Position numbers and translations under genes: made by a program. Of a stretch of 64,000 nt of DNA, positions 8,774 to 47,703 are shown piece by piece. How positions within the stretch are numbered: the first letter of the stretch is position 1; each line of letters opens with the position of its first letter. Under the pieces are notes generated by a model. The model did no database searches, was not told where the DNA came from, and saw only the letters and a list, made by a program, of their open reading frames with translations. The DNA is from Natronorubrum halophilum (GTDB lineage Archaea > Halobacteriota > Halobacteria > Halobacteriales > Natrialbaceae), in NCBI RefSeq assembly GCF_003670115.1, contig NZ_QQTY01000005.1, positions 186,001 to 250,000 on the forward strand, in the 5' to 3' direction.

Positions 8774-9745
8774 ATGACGGAGAACTTCCCCGAGTACGTC
8801 GACGTCGACTACGAGGATGGTGAAGGCGAAGATCCGGAGGACTACCCGCACGTCCAGGACAAGATCGAGAAGGCGATCGAACTCACCCGCGAGGGCCTCG
8901 AGCAGTACGAGAACCCGGCCGTGATGTGGACCGGCGGCAAGGACTCGACGCTGACGCTTTACTTCATCAAAGAGGTCGCCGACCGCTTCGATCTCGAGGT
9001 GCCGCCGGCGGTCTTCATCGACCACTACCAGCACTTCGACGAGATCCACGACTTCGTCGACCACTGGGCCGACGAGTGGGATCTCGAGGTCATCTACGCG
9101 CGCAACGAGGACATCGGCGAGTACGTCGAGGAGCACGGCCTCGAGCCGGGCGACGACATCGAGATCGCCGAACTTTCCGAGCACAACCAACACCACGTCG
9201 AGAACATCCTCGAGTACGAGGAGGACACCTTCCCGTTCCTGCTCGACACCTACGTCGGCAACCACCTGCTGAAGACGGTCGCGCTCAACGACGCCTTAGA
9301 GGAGTACGACATCGACGGCGTCATAAGCGGCGTCCGCTGGGACGAACAGGAAGCCCGTGCCGACGAGACGTTCTTCTCGCCGCGTCACGACCCCGACATC
9401 TACCCGCCACACGACCGCATCCAACCCATCCTGCAGTTCGAAGAGGCGGCCGTCTGGGAGACCTTCTGGAACTTCGTCGTCCCCGACACGGTCGAGGCGT
9501 ACCCGGACGACGGCTACGTCCCCGAAAGCGACGACGACCTCCCGGAGGGCGTCGAGCAAGCGGACATCCCGATCTCGCCGAAGTACTTCGCCGGCTTCCG
9601 CTCGCTCGGCAGCGAGGTCTCGACGGAGAAATCGGACGAGGACCCCGCCTGGCTACAGGACCTCGAGGGAACGACCGAGCGCGCGGGCCGCGCCCAGGAC
9701 AAGGAGGACCTGATGGAGCGCCTGCGCGACCTCGGCTACATGTAG
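8774..9745 (+). CDS. PP-loop ATPase, phosphoadenosine phosphosulfate reductase family
   Basis: This 323-residue adenine nucleotide alpha-hydrolase-like protein has its PP-loop at WTGGKDSTLTLYF (residues about 51-63), slightly different from the usual SGGKDS. The rest (SGVRWDEQEARADETFFSPR, then HDRIQPILQF) fits the PAPS-reductase/CysH-like branch common in haloarchaea. I chose the ATG at 8774 because the frame upstream is poor coding sequence and an AT-rich promoter lies just before it. Whether it reduces PAPS or performs sulfur transfer or tRNA thiolation is not clear, since no CysH-type Cys pair is evident. Confidence 0.85.
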   Translation: MTENFPEYVDVDYEDGEGEDPEDYPHVQDKIEKAIELTREGLEQYENPAVMWTGGKDSTLTLYFIKEVADRFDLEVPPAVFIDHYQHFDEIHDFVDHWADEWDLEVIYARNEDIGEYVEEHGLEPGDDIEIAELSEHNQHHVENILEYEEDTFPFLLDTYVGNHLLKTVALNDALEEYDIDGVISGVRWDEQEARADETFFSPRHDPDIYPPHDRIQPILQFEEAAVWETFWNFVVPDTVEAYPDDGYVPESDDDLPEGVEQADIPISPKYFAGFRSLGSEVSTEKSDEDPAWLQDLEGTTERAGRAQDKEDLMERLRDLGYM

Positions 9746-30974: not shown

Positions 30975-31001
30975 ATCGACCATCACATGATCGAGTGCCA
31001 A

Positions 31002-31606
31002 ACACTTTTTTCACGGAAAGCGGACGGTCACGGCCACGAATGTACCGTTCAGCGGCGACCGGTGTCCGCTCGACTACAGCCTCGAGACTCGAGTGCGGGT
31101 CTGTAGATCGACTGCCAACTCCGATACCGATCGCCGATCGGTGTCGCGTCGTTTCGGCTCGAAAAGGCCGCGGCCGGTCCGTCGTTCTCGTGTCCGACGG
31201 TCGTGCGTTTCTCGAGGTGCCCGGACCCGTCGATCGATCGTATCAACCGATTCGTGGCTCGGTGGAGGCCAGTTGAACGGCACGTTCGCCGGGCAGGGGT
31301 GAGGGTGGTGCGGATCGGACGCGTATAATACGCGGTTTCGTGGTATCAATCGACGAAGGGAGACGCGTCGTTAGTCGGTGACCGAGACCGAGGATCGATT
31401 CCTAAGAGTCCACTACTGTACTGTTTCACCCCGACTCGTGAGGCTCTCGGAAGTCGCGTAGGCGGTCGCTATCAGGAAGTTCGGAACCGGTGTACGGAGA
31501 AACTATTGGAACGAGAATCGACACCGGAGTAGCTGGTGAGAAGACGGGAACAGACGCGAACAGGGGTTAGTCACGTACACTGACCAAGAATAGCGTTTCA
31601 GTCCTT
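31002..31606. other. Intergenic region, no gene seen
   Basis: This 605-bp stretch between the lipoprotein gene and the first secreted paralogue has no frame with convincing coding character or recognisable motif. Its right edge leads into the conserved promoter/leader repeat at 31607. Confidence 0.5.
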
Positions 31607-31685
31607 TAATCCGCTAATTTCCTCGAAACCGTTCTCCGGCTATAAGTGAGACACAGTGGTGAGCCTCGAGTGGACAGTGTGTCGC
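31607..31685 (+). promoter_or_regulatory. Conserved promoter/leader repeat, copy 1
   Basis: This segment is closely related to those at 33396 and 34489. It contains the shared core ttctccggctataagtg, with TATA box tataag at 31641-31646, preceded 34 nt earlier by taatcc. A conserved region (cctcgagtggac) lies inside the presumed transcript. The TATA box is 135 nt before the ATG of the first secreted paralogue, so the mRNA should have a leader of about 105 nt. Confidence 0.75.
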
Positions 31686-31775
31686 ATACAGCAGATGCAG
31701 GTTTGCAAGTAGCTGCCTGTCACCCATCGAAGGGTGTGTGTGATGAACATGTCCATGAAAGTAACGTGACTCAAC

Positions 31776-32159
31776 ATGGAAATGAAACGAACGCTTGCGC
31801 TCACACTCACAGTAGCATTGGTCGGCGGCCTCATGTTCATGGGGTTCGCGGGAACAGCAGCGGCACAGGACGGTAACATATCAGTCGATCAGACCACCGG
31901 CGATGCCACTTCGACAACTAACGTCGACGTTGACCAAGAGAACTCCAACGACCAGATCGGCATCTCCGGCGCGGCTGCGGGTGCATCCGGATCTGGTGAT
32001 ACTGGCGCTGCAGCGGCCTCCGAAGTCGAGCAGGATCAGACCGTCGTTCAGGGTAACAACGCCGACGTAGACGCGACGTCGACCGCGACGTCCGGTGACA
32101 ACACCATCTCTGTCGATATCAGCGCGCTCCTGGACGGTATCTTCCCAGCAGGCGCATAA
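31776..32159 (+). CDS. Small secreted Gln/Asp/Asn-patterned protein, paralogue 1
   Basis: This 127-residue protein has a Sec signal peptide (KRTLALTLTVALVGGLMFMG, cleavage after GTAAA) and a mature acidic chain of about 95 residues starting QDGNISVDQTTGDATSTT. Two related modules can be seen: VDQTTGDAT with VDVDQENSNDQIG, and EVEQDQTVVQGNNADVD with TATSGDNTISVD. They are separated by an Ala/Gly/Ser linker. Neither Cys nor a membrane anchor is present. Paralogues lie at 33565 and 34657 with the same upstream leader. I do not recognise an established family. The alternating Gln/Asn ladder is reminiscent of curlin-type repeats, which is inference only. Confidence 0.85.
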   Translation: MEMKRTLALTLTVALVGGLMFMGFAGTAAAQDGNISVDQTTGDATSTTNVDVDQENSNDQIGISGAAAGASGSGDTGAAAASEVEQDQTVVQGNNADVDATSTATSGDNTISVDISALLDGIFPAGA

Positions 32160-33395
32160 CCACTCTCGGTAACGATTCCACGACACGATCGATTTTTTCT
32201 TGGGGTGCGGAGTTACGGAGCGTCACTGCACGATAGCTGTGGGGTTGGCGTATCCATCGCTTCGAGGGCTCGCGAGGCCCGCCTCGAGGGACGACGTAGC
32301 CCCGCCGCGCGTCGCGTTCGTTGTCCCCGTGACCGACTCGAGCCGCAGGCACGCGTCTGGCGGTCGAGGATCGCCCGGTCGTCGGTCCCATTCATCCTCG
32401 TCGCTTCCGCTGCGCCGCACCCTTGGACTCGAACAACGAGCAACGGGCACGTCCCGATGTCGATCCGACGGCGACGGCATCGTGGACGCCACTGACTCCC
32501 GCGTTGCGACGGACGGCCGCGGAGCAGTTCGGTCCGCTCCGCTTCCGCTCGAACGTCCGGATCGGAGCCCGCCGACCGGAGGCCGGGTCACGAGTCGATC
32601 GAACGGCCTCGACAGCGCGTACGAACGGGGACGGACACGAGAATCCGCCGACGGGGTCCGCGTGTCTCGAACGTCGACGGGTCCAACCTGTCCCGCGATG
32701 GGACGACTGACGCGAGTCGAGATGGGCAAACGATCGGAACCCGAGTACCGGTGTCCGCGAACGATACCGAACCCGCGGACGCTCGCCGCGAAGGGGAATC
32801 GGTTGTTCGCAGGTCCAGTATCGAACCGTACGTGGTCGCGCCCGCGTGAGATCGAAAACTGGTTCCTCCCGAATCGCGCCATCGGTGATCGTCTCGAGTT
32901 CGCGAGTGCGCCGGCGGACTTCCGGGCCGTCCCTACGACGGGTCCGGAGAGCGATCGACGTGACTCGGTGTCGGAACTCTCCGCCCCGATACGGCGGCGG
33001 CTATCGTCGATCGATCGGTAGCGTGACCCGGAAACGATGTCCGTCGGTATTGGATACGGTGATCACAGCTCCTGTAGACGGAGCTTTGCGCCGTCGAGTG
33101 GTGTTTTCGCTCGGCGTTCTCGGAGCACCGATCGGCGCTACACTGGCGTCGATACCGTCCCGTCGCGCTGACGAAAACCGGGACGACAGCCGGTTCTCGA
33201 GGCCAGCCGGTAGCGGACGCGGGAGTGTAGGAGCCGCTGAACGTCGTATCACGAGCGACCGAACTGGTATCCACGAGCAGCGTGTACACCGACGTTGGTC
33301 GGTCCGGAAGATAGTGGCAATCTACAGGCGACAGAAAAACCCGTCCGAGAGGTTGATAGTCACTCATATCGATCAAAGGGCGTGTTACAGCGTTC
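32160..33395. other. Gene-poor spacer between secreted paralogues 1 and 2
   Basis: This stretch is 1236 bp. Several long frames exist on both strands but are Arg/Ser/Pro-rich shadows typical of non-coding high-G+C DNA. A short minus-strand stretch at about 33001-33060 reads like the last residues of a histidine-kinase ATPase domain (GHRFRVTLPIDRR) and may be a relic. No intact gene, repeat or transposon end was recognised. Confidence 0.45.
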
Positions 33396-33474
33396 TAATC
33401 CAGTTATACCCTCGAAACTGTTCTCCGGCTATAAGTGAGAGGCAGTGATGGGCCTCAAGTGGACATTGCGTCAC
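33396..33474 (+). promoter_or_regulatory. Conserved promoter/leader repeat, copy 2
   Basis: This is the second copy of the repeat, with ttctccggctataagtgag and TATA box tataag at 33430-33435, again exactly 135 nt before the chosen ATG (33565). The taatcc element is 34 nt before the TATA box, as in copy 1. Downstream, a 21-nt block beginning gtgtgatgcaagcgt (33525-33545) is shared with copy 3. Confidence 0.75.
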
Positions 33475-33564
33475 AAACTCGGAGACGAAGAAATGTCGTA
33501 TCTCCGCGGTCACACAGGGGATACGTGTGATGCAAGCGTCCGAATCAGTTCGATGTGACAAACC

Positions 33565-33975
33565 ATGGAAATGAAACGAACACTTGCACTCACACTGACG
33601 GTAGCGATGGTCGGCGGCCTCATGTTCATGGGGTTCGCGGGAACAGCAGCGGCACAGGACGGTAACATATCTGTCGATCAGACCACCGGCGATGCCACTG
33701 CGACAACTGACGTCGACGTTGACCAAGAGAACAACAACGATCAGATCGGCGTCTCCGGTGCCTTCGCGGACGCGTCTTCGTACAACGATGACGGGTACGA
33801 CAAGAAGAAGGGCGGTGGCGCTTCCTCGTCGTTCGCCGGCGCTGAAGCAGCGTCTGCAGTCGAGCAGGATCAGACCGTCGTTCAAGGTAACAACGCCGAC
33901 GTAGATGCGGACTCGGACGCAGCGTCCGGTAACAACAGCATCGCGGTCGACATTGCGCTCGGCGAGTTCCTGTAA
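33565..33975 (+). CDS. Small secreted Gln/Asp/Asn-patterned protein, paralogue 2
   Basis: This 136-residue paralogue of the protein at 31776 has an almost identical signal peptide and mature start (QDGNISVDQTTGDATATTDV). The linker differs: residues about 70-90 hold ASSYNDDGYDKKKGGGASSS, a short Lys/Gly patch in an otherwise acidic protein. The second module EQDQTVVQGNNADVDADS is conserved, and the C-terminus ends IALGEFL. The tandem ATGs (MEMKRT) leave a two-codon ambiguity in the start. Likely secreted; the function is unknown. Confidence 0.85.
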   Translation: MEMKRTLALTLTVAMVGGLMFMGFAGTAAAQDGNISVDQTTGDATATTDVDVDQENNNDQIGVSGAFADASSYNDDGYDKKKGGGASSSFAGAEAASAVEQDQTVVQGNNADVDADSDAASGNNSIAVDIALGEFL

Positions 33976-34488
33976 TCGCCGGCCGTAGCGGTTACCGACA
34001 ACCATTTTATTTCAGGCGCTTCGACGGATAGCGTCGCGACGACAGTAACAACTGCAACGAGTTACACGCCCATCGTAGTCCGCGGTTCTCGCTCACTCAC
34101 GGCTCACGGCTCGCAGGGCTCGACGTCCCGTCGTCCGCCCGATCGGTTCGATCGCTTCCCTCGAGACTGCCCGCCCGGACTTCGGTTCCGATACCGTCGA
34201 TTGACGGGACCGTGGCGTCTTTGTCGATCGACTCGGCAAATCTCGCGAAGCGTTCCGAGCGACGGATCGCCCCGCCTCGACACTGACCGTTTCTGCAGTG
34301 GGGAGGCGAACGCAACCGGTTTCCGGCCTGTAGGCCGGCCATTGTGCCGTCGGAAAGTGTGCCACGCGACGGATCTCGGACTGCCGTTCGCTCGCTCTTC
34401 GAAGACGACCATCGCGCCGACTGCGGGGAGACCCATACGAATAGTAGACAGTCACTCGAGCCGATCAAAAAATCCCTTACAGCGCGCT
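33976..34488. other. Spacer between secreted paralogues 2 and 3
   Basis: This 513-bp stretch has only shadow frames on both strands. No gene, transposon end or RNA structure was recognised. The next promoter/leader repeat begins at 34489. Confidence 0.45.
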
Positions 34489-34566
34489 AATCCGTTACTT
34501 CCCTCGGAACTGTTCTCCGGCTATAAGTGCCGGGCGATGATGTGCCTCGAGTGGGCATTGCGTCAC
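34489..34566 (+). promoter_or_regulatory. Conserved promoter/leader repeat, copy 3
   Basis: This is the third copy, with TATA box tataag at 34522-34527 in the shared context ttctccggctataagtg. The ATG of paralogue 3 is 135 nt after the TATA box. The downstream block beginning gtgtgatgcaagcgt (34628-34648) matches copy 2. Confidence 0.75.
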
Positions 34567-34656
34567 AGCACTGAACGTGCGAAACAACCGTCTCTTTGGC
34601 AGCCGATTGCTGCACGCGAGTCGAGACGTGTGATGCAAGCGTCCGAATACCTAGCA

Positions 34657-35079
34657 ATGAAACGAACACTTGCACTCACGCTTACGATGGCACTGGTCGG
34701 TGGCCTCATGTTCATGGGGTTCGCGGGAACAGCAGCGGCACAGGACGGTAACATATCTGTCGATCAGACCACCGGCGACGCCACGGCGGTAACGGATGTC
34801 GAAGTTGAACAGGAGAACGACAACGAACAGATCGGCGTCTCCGGTGCCTTCGCGGACGCGTCTTCGTACAATGATAACGGGCACGACAAGATGAAGGGCG
34901 GTGACGCTTCCTCGTCGTCCACCGGCGCTGAAGCAGCGTCTGCAGTCGAGCAGGATCAGAACGTCGCTCAGGGTAACAATGCTGACGTAGATGCGGACTC
35001 GACCGCAACCTCCGGTGACAACACCATCGATGTCGGATTCGCTGTCGAGATCATCGAACTCCTCGACATCCTCGGATAA
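34657..35079 (+). CDS. Small secreted Gln/Asp/Asn-patterned protein, paralogue 3
   Basis: This is the third family member, 140 aa. The signal peptide MKRTLALTLTMALVGGLMFM with cleavage after GTAAA, the first module (VDQTTGDATAVTDVEVEQEN) and the second (EQDQNVAQGNNADVDADSTA) match the other two. Its C-terminus is longer and hydrophobic (AVEIIELLDILG), as is that of paralogue 1 (ALLDGIFPAGA). The start lacks the extra ME codons of the other copies. An in-frame ATG eight codons upstream (34633) lies in the conserved leader and is less likely. Confidence 0.85.
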   Translation: MKRTLALTLTMALVGGLMFMGFAGTAAAQDGNISVDQTTGDATAVTDVEVEQENDNEQIGVSGAFADASSYNDNGHDKMKGGDASSSSTGAEAASAVEQDQNVAQGNNADVDADSTATSGDNTIDVGFAVEIIELLDILG

Positions 35080-35786
35080 CCGCTCTCAGTAGCGATTTCA
35101 GAGTTCTGTATTTTTTGAACGGACACCGATCCAGCATAGCGACTGCGCTTCGCCCTCGTCGGTATCGGAACCCGCAATTCGACCCGAAAGTCCACGCCTT
35201 CGTCGCGTCGCATCTGCTCGCCAGCGTCGCTGCAGGGTTCGCGGCGTATCCCCCGCATCCTTCGAGGGGTCTGTGATCACTCGCTTCGGGTTTGCAGCGC
35301 GTTCCGCCGTGTCTCGAGGGCTGAAGGGACCATCGACGTCGCTCTCGTCCCACGATGCGAGGCCAGCAGGTCGGTGAGCTCGAGCGTTCGCCTTTGCCCT
35401 TCTCGAGACCGCCCCTCGGGAGCGCTCGCCCGCATCCGGCTGCCGCGCGAGTCGGCGAGCGGCGGACGAGTTGCCCTGCGTCGCCATCAGCCGGCAGTAT
35501 CCGGCCGCTTCGAACGTCCGGACGAGGCTACCGCGTCGATCAGGGCGCGACTACAGACGAAACGATTCCGGGCCTTCAACACGAGTCGGGAAGACCGTCG
35601 ACGTAGCGTGGACCACCGTCCCGCTCGCGGTGGCGGACGCTCCGAGGTGGCCCACGGACGGCGGTCGTGGGAGTTCACGCGCCCACTGCACGCGAGCATC
35701 GGTGCCAGTACCCCGAACGCTGTCACTCTCGTGGTCGGCTCTACGGGGTCCGCTGTTGACGACCGCTCGAGACTCTCGCAAACACC
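35080..35786. other. Intergenic region, no gene seen
   Basis: This 707-bp stretch follows the third secreted paralogue. The frames on both strands are Arg/Ser/Pro-rich shadows. No promoter of the leader-repeat type was found before the next gene at 35787. Confidence 0.45.
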
Positions 35787-36275
35787 ATGACAGAAATCGA
35801 ATTCTCGTGGGGAACGGTGTCCCACAAGACCGATTCCGAAACCGGCGACACGAACGTTGAAATAACCCTCGAGGCCGAGGGCGGCGTCTCGCTCTCGGTG
35901 ACGACGGCTACCGACGTAGCGGACGAGGCGGCTACCACTGAGCCGAGAGCCGAGACGACGACGTTTCCGTGGGGAGCGGTGACCCACGGGACCGATCCCG
36001 ACACCGGCGCGACGAACGTCGAGGTGATCACCGACGTCGAGGCCGACGTGTCGGTATCCGCGACGGCGGTATCCGACGGGACGACTCGCTCGGAGTCGAC
36101 GACCGTCGTCCGGTCGACGGGCGACGCGCACGCGAGCGTCACTCGGTCGGTTTCGTCGGGGACGAACTCCGCCGCCGACTCGGTGGTCGCCACCAGTTCG
36201 ACGACGAGCGACTCGCAGTCGACGAGCGTCTCGTCGGGAACATCGATTCCGATCGACGACGGGGACGACGACTGA
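35787..36275 (+). CDS. Acidic Ser/Thr-rich protein with duplicated WG-H-TD-TG-TNVE motif
   Basis: This 162-residue protein of unknown function has no signal peptide. Two copies of a motif of about 33 residues are visible: EFSWGTVSHKTDSETGDTNV (from residue 4) and TFPWGAVTHGTDPDTGATNV (from about residue 58). Each is followed by a beta-like stretch (VSLSVTTAT; VSVSATAVS). The second half (residues about 95-155) is low-complexity Ser/Thr/Val ending in IDDGDDD. The duplicated Trp/His/Asp pattern with regular spacing argues for a real protein. I do not recognise the family. It lies 708 nt after the secreted paralogues. Confidence 0.6.
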   Translation: MTEIEFSWGTVSHKTDSETGDTNVEITLEAEGGVSLSVTTATDVADEAATTEPRAETTTFPWGAVTHGTDPDTGATNVEVITDVEADVSVSATAVSDGTTRSESTTVVRSTGDAHASVTRSVSSGTNSAADSVVATSSTTSDSQSTSVSSGTSIPIDDGDDD

Positions 36276-36514
36276 ATCGAAGAACGAGCACCGGTTTTCT
36301 GCCGTAGAGTCGTTCGAATTCGACTCGCCAGCGGTCGATGGACACCGCCGTGAGTAGAACCCTGCCGCGAGAACCGCCGCTCGCCTCGTCGGCGTCGAAT
36401 TGAACACGGGCGTCAGGACATCGTCGTTGCGCTCTTCGGTGGAGACCACCGACGGGAAACGCACGGGAATCCGATCGCGGAGATCCCCGAATACGCCGTC
36501 TCCGGCGCGATCAA

Positions 36515-36838
36515 TTACGCTTCGAACCAGCCCGAAAGATCGAGATCCGGCATCACGGTAACCGGATCCCCTGACTCGGGCAGTTCAGCGTCGTCCGGGG
36601 CCTCGACGGTGTCCTCTTCGACCTCGCTGGTTTCCTGTTCGGTAACGTCGTTGACTTCCTCCTCTTCGACGACGGTGGTGGCCTCTTCTTCCACCGCGTC
36701 GTCGCTTTCCTGTTCGATGACGTCGGTCTGGGCCGCTGCCGTCCCGGCACCGCCGATCAGCGCGAGCAGACCCGCTGCGATTGCGATCACGAACACTGTC
36801 CGTCCGATCGTTCCGTACTGCCGTGTTATCCGTTTCAT
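36515..36838 (-). CDS. Small secreted highly acidic protein
   Basis: This 107-residue protein has a signal peptide (RTVFVIAIAAGLLALIGGAG, cleavage after GTAAA) and a mature chain starting QTDVIEQESDDAV. That is the same AAA-Gln processing site as in the three paralogues at 31.8-35.1 kb. The mature part is dominated by Glu, Asp and Val (VVEEEEVNDVTEQETSEVEE) and ends with VMPDLDLSGWFEA. It has neither an anchor nor Cys. It is transcribed toward the protein at 35787. Function unknown. Confidence 0.7.
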   Translation of the reverse strand: MKRITRQYGTIGRTVFVIAIAAGLLALIGGAGTAAAQTDVIEQESDDAVEEEATTVVEEEEVNDVTEQETSEVEEDTVEAPDDAELPESGDPVTVMPDLDLSGWFEA

Positions 36839-37179
36839 TGTTTGCCTCGCAGGGCACGGTCACTTCACTCACTGCCAGCAATAAATCGCCAGAACTGTTT
36901 TCGGTTCGAACGGGTGGTTTCGGGAACGAAATCAGATCCAAAAAACGCGCCCGATCGAGCCACTCTGCGGGGATCAGAGCCGTACGGACCGTGCGAACGA
37001 TCCCGACGGACGGTCCGACGGAACGGGGAGGATACGAAACGGATAGGCCACGAGTAACGGCTTTTCTCGGCGCGAACGTCCCTCTTCACGCCGCTCGAGG
37101 AGTCGGCCTCGTTCGGTGCGAACGATACCGCTGCTCGAGCAGCGCTTCGGCTCTCGAAATCGCCGACCCGCTCTCGGTG
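36839..37179. other. Intergenic region, no gene seen
   Basis: This 341-bp stretch lies between larC (3' end) and the small secreted protein (5' end), both on the minus strand. It presumably holds the promoter of the gene at 36838. No coding frame or repeat is recognised. Confidence 0.45.
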
Positions 37180-45671: not shown

Positions 45672-47372
45672 TCAGTCGTCGGCGTCGTGCCACGGCATGT
45701 CTCCTTTCCACTCGTCGCCGGTCGCGCCGGCGCGCGGATAGCGGCTGAGGTACGACTGTTTGTCGTCGACGATCGCCCCGGCCGGCCCCTCGACGGTGAC
45801 GTCGACGAGCAGCGTGTCGAACTCCCAGGCGTGGCGGCCGTCGACGAGGCGGCCAGCAGCGCGGGTGCCGTCGTCGCTGACCCACGTGCAGTCGTCTTCG
45901 ATGGCCGCGCCGTTGTACGTCGACGGCTCGATGGGACCGTCCTCGATTTCGAAGTAGTAGTCGGTCGGCTCGTCCTCGCCCTCGGCGACGAATTCGTACG
46001 TGTGTTCGAACTCGCGTTCGTCCGCGCCGTCAACATCGTCATCGGCGTGCCACGGCATATCGCCCTTCCACTCGTCACCGGTCGCGCCGGGGAGGGGGTA
46101 CCGATCGAGGTTCGACTGGACGTCGTCGACGATCGCCCCGGCCGGCCCCTCGACGGTGACGTCGACGAGTAGCGTGTCGAACTCCCAGGCGTGGCGGCCG
46201 TCGACGAGGCGGCCGGCAGCGCGGGTGCCGTCGTCGCTGGTCCACATGTAGTCGTCTTCGATGGCCGCGCCGTTGTACGTCGACGGCTCGATGGGACCGT
46301 CCTCGATTTCGAAGTAGTAGTCGGTCGGCTCGTCCTCGCCCTCGGCGACGAACTCGTACGTGTGGCGAAGGTCCTCGTGGTCGCCTCGAGCAGTGCTCGA
46401 ACCACCGGAGCCGCCGGAAGCGGCCGCTTCGGGTGACGTTGGAACGCCGTCGGGGATCGAGAGATCCGGGTCGCTCGAGACGGCGCTGCCGACGGTGACG
46501 GTCGAACCGCTCGTGCGACGGATGTTGCCCCGGATCCCGCCGCTCTCGAAGGTGGCGCGTCCGGGGGAGCCGTTCGCTCCGGCGACGATCGCGGACGGAT
46601 AGGGACCGTCGGCGAAGTGGGAGTCGCGGATCGTCACGGTGCCGCCGTTCCAGACCCAGACCGGGCGACCGTTCGTTTCGGAGTAGCCGCCGTAGCCGCG
46701 CCCGTAGTCGGTGTCATCGTTGTACGCGACGCAGCCGACGATCGCGTCGTCGGCGCTCGCACAGCGGAAGGTCGTCACGCCGTTGTTCTTGCCGAAGCAG
46801 TGCTCGAATCGGACGCTGCCGCCGTGGGCGGTGTTTGAACAGTAGAACCCGTTGTTCGGCCATCCCTGGACGTTGCAGTGGCGAAACGTCACGTCCGCGC
46901 TGTTGTTTCGGTGCATGAAAACCGCACCGGGTCCGTGGACGAAACTTTCCCCCTCCTTCGTCGAGCCGTCGCCGAGGTAGACGTTCTCGACGAGGATATC
47001 GCCGTACCCGGCGTCGATCGAGATCATGAACCCGTCGCCGCGGTGGAGTCCCTCGAACCCGATATTTCGGATCGTCGAGTTCGTTCCGGTCACGTACAAC
47101 AACACCGAGTTGCCGTTCGTGAGGTCGATCAGTTTGTTCTCGAACGTCTCTCCCTGCCCGATCCGAATGGTCTGTCCCCGCGCCGTGATCACGTCGTAGT
47201 CCTCACCGGCGGCGCTCGCCGTCGATGCGAAGCCCGACGCCGCTGCGACACCGCCTGCGAATTTGAGGTACGAACGCCGATCGAAACGAGTGCGTACGGC
47301 CTCGCTCGAGGCGTCGCTTGCGTTGTTCACCGCTTCGTTCCCGTCATCCGTCGCTGCAGAATCGCGTGCCAT
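45672..47372 (-). CDS. Tat-exported right-handed beta-helix protein with duplicated C-terminal domain
   Basis: Predicted extracellular polysaccharide-interacting protein, 566 aa. The N-terminus carries a twin-arginine signal (FDRRSYLKFAGGVAAASG, residues about 30-47). A pectate-lyase-like parallel beta-helix (about residues 55-300) follows, with repeated short strands such as NSTIRNIGFEGLHRGDGFMI and VTFRHCNVQGWPNNGFYC. After a Gly/Ser linker come two near-identical C-terminal units containing YEFVAEGEDEPTDYYFEIED and GDEWKGDMPWH. The start at 47372 is favoured because a TATA element (tatataa, 47397-47403) lies 28 nt upstream. No catalytic residues are certain. Confidence 0.85.
   Translation of the reverse strand: MARDSAATDDGNEAVNNASDASSEAVRTRFDRRSYLKFAGGVAAASGFASTASAAGEDYDVITARGQTIRIGQGETFENKLIDLTNGNSVLLYVTGTNSTIRNIGFEGLHRGDGFMISIDAGYGDILVENVYLGDGSTKEGESFVHGPGAVFMHRNNSADVTFRHCNVQGWPNNGFYCSNTAHGGSVRFEHCFGKNNGVTTFRCASADDAIVGCVAYNDDTDYGRGYGGYSETNGRPVWVWNGGTVTIRDSHFADGPYPSAIVAGANGSPGRATFESGGIRGNIRRTSGSTVTVGSAVSSDPDLSIPDGVPTSPEAAASGGSGGSSTARGDHEDLRHTYEFVAEGEDEPTDYYFEIEDGPIEPSTYNGAAIEDDYMWTSDDGTRAAGRLVDGRHAWEFDTLLVDVTVEGPAGAIVDDVQSNLDRYPLPGATGDEWKGDMPWHADDDVDGADEREFEHTYEFVAEGEDEPTDYYFEIEDGPIEPSTYNGAAIEDDCTWVSDDGTRAAGRLVDGRHAWEFDTLLVDVTVEGPAGAIVDDKQSYLSRYPRAGATGDEWKGDMPWHDADD
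45691..46352. repeat. Tandem 360-bp repeat inside the beta-helix gene
   Basis: The segments 45691-45992 and 46051-46352 align at an exact 360-bp offset. The stretch 45781-45960 is nearly identical to 46141-46320. The repeat encodes two 120-residue C-terminal units of the exported beta-helix protein. The near identity at DNA level implies a recent duplication or ongoing gene conversion. Confidence 0.85.
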
Positions 47373-47703
47373 GCGATCGTGTAATTCTGTTTTTCCTATA
47401 TAAGCTTTCCCCAATTTTTGAATGAAATAACGAGATAGTCATACTATCCTGAACAAATGGTGAATTATAACGCTTAAATATCATTATACTTTATACGACG
47501 AAACGGCGCACATTCCAGGCTGACGGCGTGCGTTCGGTAGCGGCGGCGATCCGATCGCTCCGCTCGTCGGATGGCGGTCCGATCTAACGTTTACGAGCGT
47601 CTACAGAGCGGACCAGATCGATTTCTCGAGGCGTAGGAGGAAATTTGCTGGCAGCGTTGGAGGACACGCAGACGAACGAACGCACAAGAATCGAGTCCGC
47701 TTC
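47373..47703. other. AT-rich intergenic region upstream of the beta-helix gene
   Basis: This 331-bp stretch is strikingly AT-rich between about 47393 and 47510, unlike the genome at large. It contains the TATA box of the beta-helix gene (47397-47403, minus strand). No gene is seen; the HAD phosphatase gene ends at its right edge. Confidence 0.6.

Follow-up and report, generated by a model that had tools for sequence, protein, structure and literature searches.

The three genes of a small secreted protein family (labelled FAM) found in the window, i.e., the whole stretch of 64,000 nt that was analysed, and the gene of a second, predicted secreted protein (labelled c1; frames of 504-674 aa) appear to constitute a previously undescribed two-part system, which probably builds a curli-like extracellular fibre or coat. 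Haloarchaeal biofilms contain amyloid-like material without an identified protein (PMC4180959); FAM and c1 offer a conserved two-gene candidate and could reveal one of the proteins from which haloarchaeal surfaces or biofilms are built.

Three related small secreted proteins had been proposed in a preliminary description and were borne out (Table 1). The genes were spaced 1.8 and 1.1 kb apart and shared in-register DNA copies of 300 nt (71-92% identity) and 116 nt (83-84% identity), and an upstream copy of 122 nt (68-74% identity), a similarity far beyond chance. By inspection, the proteins carried a Sec-type signal peptide (KR, hydrophobic core, GTAAA). Paralogue 1 started at 31776 or at 31782, the latter being the MKR start common to the family; the left edge given earlier for the group, 31607, was displaced by this start and falls within the upstream, putative promoter region. 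Paralogue 3 was opened at 34201 in the mechanical ORF list, upstream of the homologous ATG.

Table 1. Positions of FAM genes, their modules and upstream elements, and of two neighbouring genes in the window
Feature	Position	Strand	Remarks
FAM paralogue 1, 127 aa	31776..32159	+	Sec-type signal peptide ending GTAAA, followed by Q
FAM paralogue 2, 136 aa	33565..33975	+	
FAM paralogue 3, 140 aa	34657..35079	+	Homologous start ATG 34657
Half-2 module, paralogue 1, V-x-V-x-Q-x-N-x-N-x-Q-x-G-x-S-x-A	31923..31985	+	c1 half-2 profile vs shuffled controls
Half-1 module, paralogue 1, S-x-V-x-Q-x-Q-x-V-x-Q-x-N-x-A-x-V	32019..32087	+	Profile vs shuffled controls
Half-2 module, paralogue 2	33712..33774	+	Profile vs shuffled controls
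Half-1 module, paralogue 2	33853..33921	+	Profile vs shuffled controls
Half-2 module, paralogue 3	34798..34860	+	Profile vs shuffled controls
Half-1 module, paralogue 3	34939..35007	+	Profile vs shuffled controls
Promoter-like block CGAAACCGTTCTCCGGCTATAAGTG (BRE + TATA-like), paralogue 1	31624..31648	+	Conserved in three copies and across genomes
Promoter-like block, paralogue 2	33413..33437	+	Conserved in copies and across genomes
Promoter-like block, paralogue 3	34505..34529	+	Conserved in copies and across genomes
5'-leader stem-loop, paralogue 1, GGACAGTGTGTCGCATAC / GTGTGTGATGAACATGTCC	31672..31754	+	
5'-leader stem-loop, paralogue 2, GGACATTGCGTCACA / TGTGATGCAAGCGTCC	33461..33541	+	
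5'-leader stem-loop, paralogue 3, GGGCATTGCGTCACA / TGTGATGCAAGCGTCC	34553..34644	+	
Protein with two F-x-W-G-x-V-x-H-x-TD repeats and Ser/Thr-rich tail	35787..36275	+	Homologues near FAM in three other genomes
Small secreted protein, Glu/Val/Thr-rich repeats	36515..36838	-	Related ORFs beside FAM in L039, L053, L056, L064

The three ORFs are real genes under purifying selection, as follows from a whole-CDS dN/dS of 0.32-0.42 among the paralogues, indels that preserved the reading frame, and the recurrence of this signal peptide and these modules in homologues from many genomes. The signal peptide and mature start QDGNISVDQTTGDAT were near-identical in protein, as had been claimed (dN 0.01-0.03), but not in DNA (dS 0.20-0.41), which indicates selection and/or shared descent and not a very recent copy. 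By segment, where counts were small and values are indicative, dN/dS was lowest in the signal peptide and N-terminus (0.04-0.12) and in the half-1 module (0.08-0.17), and reached 0.34-0.54 in half-2 and 0.5-1.3 in the C-terminus, with linkers also varying freely. Conserved ends around a variable middle, as first described, are replaced by a conserved N-terminus and two conserved internal modules, with divergence in the linker and C-terminus. The window paralogues were one another's closest relatives (76-78% in the mature part), FAM copies often formed lineage-specific clusters of two to three, and the best match lay within the same genome for 26 of 33 FAM members of multi-copy genomes, a sign of duplication within lineages and/or gene conversion. 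The same signal peptide occurred in a fourth, shorter FAM-like gene (89 aa; G000:C6:136284-136517; L065:9849-10115, minus strand), whose sole module was half-1-like.

With FAM protein P0002 as query, 28 genomes out of 61 related ones had relatives; 27 of the 28 belong to Natrialbaceae, the family of the window genome, Natronorubrum texcoconense being one same-genus genome with a relative. A FAM profile (24 members) matched 63 of 292 genomes of the class (E ≤ 0.001). Two Natrialbaceae genomes matching solely within c1, and nine of ten extra-family matches, which were weak (E 3.5e-7 to 9e-4) and mostly to long ORFs, were left out of the count, and clear FAM remained in 52 of 292 haloarchaeal genomes, almost all Natrialbaceae. 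The profile search across haloarchaea suggested earlier returned homologues and no characterised family: FAM had no Pfam or NCBIfam family above the curated cut-off and no PHROGs match, sequence and profile searches for PDB relatives gave nothing credible (sole match at chance level, E 0.065), and no paper was found on the FAM/c1 family. These database negatives and the homologues across genomes support the earlier reading, namely that the genes form a multigene family of secreted, partly diversifying proteins outside any known family. Public records label FAM proteins hypothetical, and one homologue in N. aibiense (L112:4001-4435; NZ_CP045489.1) is labelled 'toxin transporter', without sequence support. 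A virus origin was rejected, since phage records contained no FAM and viral contigs no c1.

The conserved block upstream of the FAM genes would be a promoter, most genes having GAAACCGTT and then a box of the TCGGGTTnAAGTG type, and the window genes CTATAAG. About 25-30 nt past the block came GGGCAACGCGTCAC, a variable loop and, shortly before the start codon, GTGATGCGTGCC, the two arms being complementary; from the spacing, the transcript would be expected to start near the beginning of this leader stem. In a register-free duplex test (5000 permutations), matched arms averaged -22.8 kcal/mol and no permuted mean fell below -19.9; without the anchoring ends, the average was -14.6 kcal/mol and the lowest permuted mean -12.4. 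Ten FAM leaders folded with z of -1.9 to -4.8. In an alignment of 22 sequences, 85% of cells were standard pairs and five pairs were changed on both sides, a count that leans towards structure since these leaders were hand-picked for a recognisable stem and their arms located by sequence anchors; a +2 slide gave a nearly equal covariation score (0.188 vs 0.196). A fixed-register count that took in all 34 arm pairs exceeded its shuffled counterpart by little (0.712 vs 0.679; p = 0.003) because of indels, and is weaker evidence for the stem than the duplex test and the alignment. Rfam covariance models gave no match up to E 1 over 31000-37000. In Haloferax, leaderless transcripts make up about two thirds of the total (PMC3235422), and the FAM genes add a conserved leader RNA to a group with many such transcripts; the 5'-terminal stem of this leader may control or stabilise FAM mRNA. 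The c1 genes had a different conserved leader, with GATAACAAAG about 90-103 nt upstream of the start. This leader of ~100 nt (GATAACAAAG ... CTCTCACGG) had predicted hairpins in many genomes (e.g., L099 near 9128-9250).

By ORF clustering across neighbourhoods, c1 lay beside FAM in 22 of 33 neighbourhoods, and full-length adjacent c1 was transcribed divergently from FAM, L060 with its convergent pair being the sole exception. The usual gene order was Cdc48 AAA, LarC-type nickel insertion protein, FAM copies, c1, an unknown gene, RadB and a CBS protein, adjacent FAM-c1 pairs occupying this conserved LarC-Cdc48/RadB site. The surroundings, initially described as a gene-poor accessory stretch, were gene-poor and not accessory, with FAM adjoining LarC/Cdc48 in most Natrialbaceae examined. 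In the window genome, c1 was located on the same contig (411244-412836), ~190 kb from FAM, where it adjoined the unknown gene, RadB and CBS genes, and FAM remained by LarC/Cdc48; on this gene order, a rearrangement has split the locus. The distance means that co-expression is not implied there. The locus was split likewise in N. texcoconense, and an intact FAM-c1-RadB block was present on an N. bangense plasmid.

Among the 61 relatives, both proteins occurred in 27 genomes, c1 only in 3, FAM only in 1 (marginal, E 8.7e-4) and neither in 30 (Fisher p = 7e-13), and in the class sample (n = 292) the counts were 52, 6, 0 and 234, respectively (p = 3e-51); genomes are related, so both p-values overstate the association. 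Better evidence than these p-values is that no clear FAM occurred in a genome lacking c1, in sets that included Natrialbaceae with neither protein.

Searches of c1 against Pfam and NCBIfam returned PGF-CTERM as the sole match. Repeats of ~55 aa numbered five in 28 of 32 c1 proteins and, counted by the same pattern, four in the rest. Their consensus (xAxVxQxQxVxQxNxNxQxxAxAIAxxxSxATAxQxxxQxNxNxQxGxAxAxNV; 156 repeats) had several near-invariant Q and N positions and conserved columns mostly two apart, and this alternation of conserved and variable columns suggests beta-strands with one conserved face. Q-x-N-x-N-x-Q occurred 190 times in 21 c1 proteins against 0.5 expected from shuffles. Both half-1 (A-x-V-x-Q-x-Q-x-V-x-Q-x-N) and half-2 (Q-x-N-x-N-x-Q-x-G-x-A) were found in c1 and in FAM, which contains half-2, a linker and half-1, equal to one c1 inter-repeat unit. 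The 99th percentile of shuffled FAM was exceeded by the c1 half-1 profile in 41, and by the half-2 profile in 35, of 49 FAM proteins. The c1 profile matched FAM ORFs (E 1e-7 to 3e-10), and the FAM profile matched c1 interiors across its half-2-to-half-1 part (E 7e-6 to 6e-4). Some FAM members had lost one or both modules (e.g., L046, L049, L061).

The PGF-CTERM pattern ended 10 of 32 c1 proteins and was missing from 22, so anchoring is not general; the model confirmed it in five, including that of the window genome (TIGR04126, E 9.4e-11, 41.1 bits, cut-off 24.5). Five c1 proteins had a Tat-like RRxYLKG start. Surface or matrix proteins or secreted effectors had been suggested at the outset; the surface or matrix role gained support, because no clear FAM occurs without c1 and PGF-CTERM is present on about one c1 in three, and the effector role gained none.

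The Glu/Val/Thr-rich protein (Table 1) is a possible accessory component. The F-x-W-G-x-V-x-H-x-TD protein had a signal peptide in the L047 and L063 homologues and none in the window and L039 copies. Beside FAM in three same-genus genomes (L046:10524-11777, L049:8114-9313, L063:11260-12570) lay a PGF-CTERM-like protein whose long repeats are rich in Lys and Asp; it is a candidate further surface component. Elsewhere in the window (45672-47414, minus strand), a Tat-type secreted protein of 580 aa had two near-identical ~90-aa repeats (HTYEFVAEGEDEPTDYYFEIEDGPIEPSTYNGAAIEDD) in its C-terminal half.

Given the shared Q/N/A repeat, it is an even call that FAM and c1 belong to a single assembly outside the cell, a beta-rich fibre or coat; fibre formation, nucleation, polymerisation and amyloid are what we infer from sequence, and the shared repeat and co-occurrence fall short of proving a physical FAM-c1 complex. 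In half-1 and half-2 alike, Q, N, A, V and G are conserved at every other position with variable polar residues between them, and such a conserved face on stacked beta-strands would make c1 a beta-solenoid-like scaffold. Envelope-anchored c1 would template or nucleate the small FAM subunits, disordered alone, which would stack into a fibre or coat with a CsgB/CsgA-like division of labour, and the clustered, diverging FAM copies would diversify the exposed surface through their variable linkers and C-termini. A loose or disordered surface or matrix coat (slime, S-layer-associated), whose repeats interact without ordered fibre or amyloid, is rather unlikely, near-invariant alternating Q/N/A over 156 repeats with strict spacing being hard to explain in such a coat; it agrees with the disorder of the AlphaFold2 model of P0002 (six sequences; mean pLDDT 42, no strands), with acidic, Lys/Asp/Gly-rich FAM linkers which, like the C-termini, vary freely (dN/dS up to about 1), and with the PGF-CTERM anchoring signal of some c1. 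P0002 was the one chain modelled of the three proposed for structure prediction; its model was uninformative and lends the fibre no structural support.

Genomes mostly had one c1, and FAM copy number and sequence changed fast beside a conserved c1. This pattern, and the single unit of FAM against five in c1, would also fit a ligand- or mineral-binding adhesin or scaffold (c1) with soluble single-unit competitors or modulators (FAM) that are not polymer subunits, a reading we consider improbable and against which the FAM promoter and leader, suggestive of a strongly, individually controlled structural gene, argue weakly. That FAM, being small, secreted, clustered and diversifying, and once labelled 'toxin transporter', are halocin-like antagonists with diversified parts and c1 their receptor or immunity factor is very improbable, since that label lacks sequence support, no processing site, transporter or immunity-like small gene was conserved beside FAM in the neighbourhoods compared, and a structural repeat common to both proteins is unlike a toxin-immunity pair. 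The fibre or coat of FAM and c1, in its most specific form, would be a new archaeal fibre class of curli-independent origin, in which an anchored five-repeat c1 nucleator seeds fast-diversifying single-unit FAM made from 5'-terminal-stem mRNAs; this form is put forward tentatively.

Among known systems, surface proteins processed by archaeosortase (PGF-CTERM; TIGR04126, PF18204) resemble 10 of 32 c1, including that of the window genome, in ending with the signal; the signal is an attachment tag, and the repeat part of c1 is without known family. Extracellular material of Haloferax volcanii biofilms binds Congo red and thioflavin T, its protein being unnamed and one candidate gene suggested (PMC4180959). 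Haloferax volcanii belongs to a different haloarchaeal family and c1/FAM genomes are nearly all Natrialbaceae, so FAM/c1 is a parallel candidate and not an explanation of that matrix. The archaeal sheath proteins SH of Methanospirillum and MspA of Methanosaeta are extracellular and described as amyloid-like (PMC10593813, PMC6242892); compared by description, they share an extracellular archaeal assembly with that proposed for FAM/c1, but are single large sheath proteins from methanogens. In a survey from 2012, curli-like repeats were mentioned for a single unnamed protein of archaeal origin (PMC3521004); it is possibly, but not necessarily, a c1.

Like curli (CsgA/CsgB, PF07012), FAM and c1 are two secreted proteins of one Q/N repeat with adjacent genes, their conserved Q, N and A positions alternate, and five repeats occur in CsgA and in most c1; unlike in curli, the c1 repeat has ~55 aa instead of ~22. 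A CsgG/E/F secretion machinery also marks curli; no outer membrane is expected in archaea. Curlin membership of c1 and FAM was rejected on three comparisons: PF07012 had no match at E ≤ 1 for c1 or FAM (positive controls CsgA 1e-27, CsgB 1e-24); the core Q-x-G-x2-N of the curlin minimal repeat, X6-Q-X-G-X2-N-X10 (PMC3521004), was nearly absent (21 c1 proteins of ~550 aa had 16 in all, against 5 per Csg protein of 151 aa); and c1 profiles scored CsgA/B no higher than shuffles. FAM/c1 resembles curli in organisation and may work alike, but is not a curlin; if the proposal is true, archaea evolved a division of labour like that of curli on the basis of a repeat unrelated to the curlin one.
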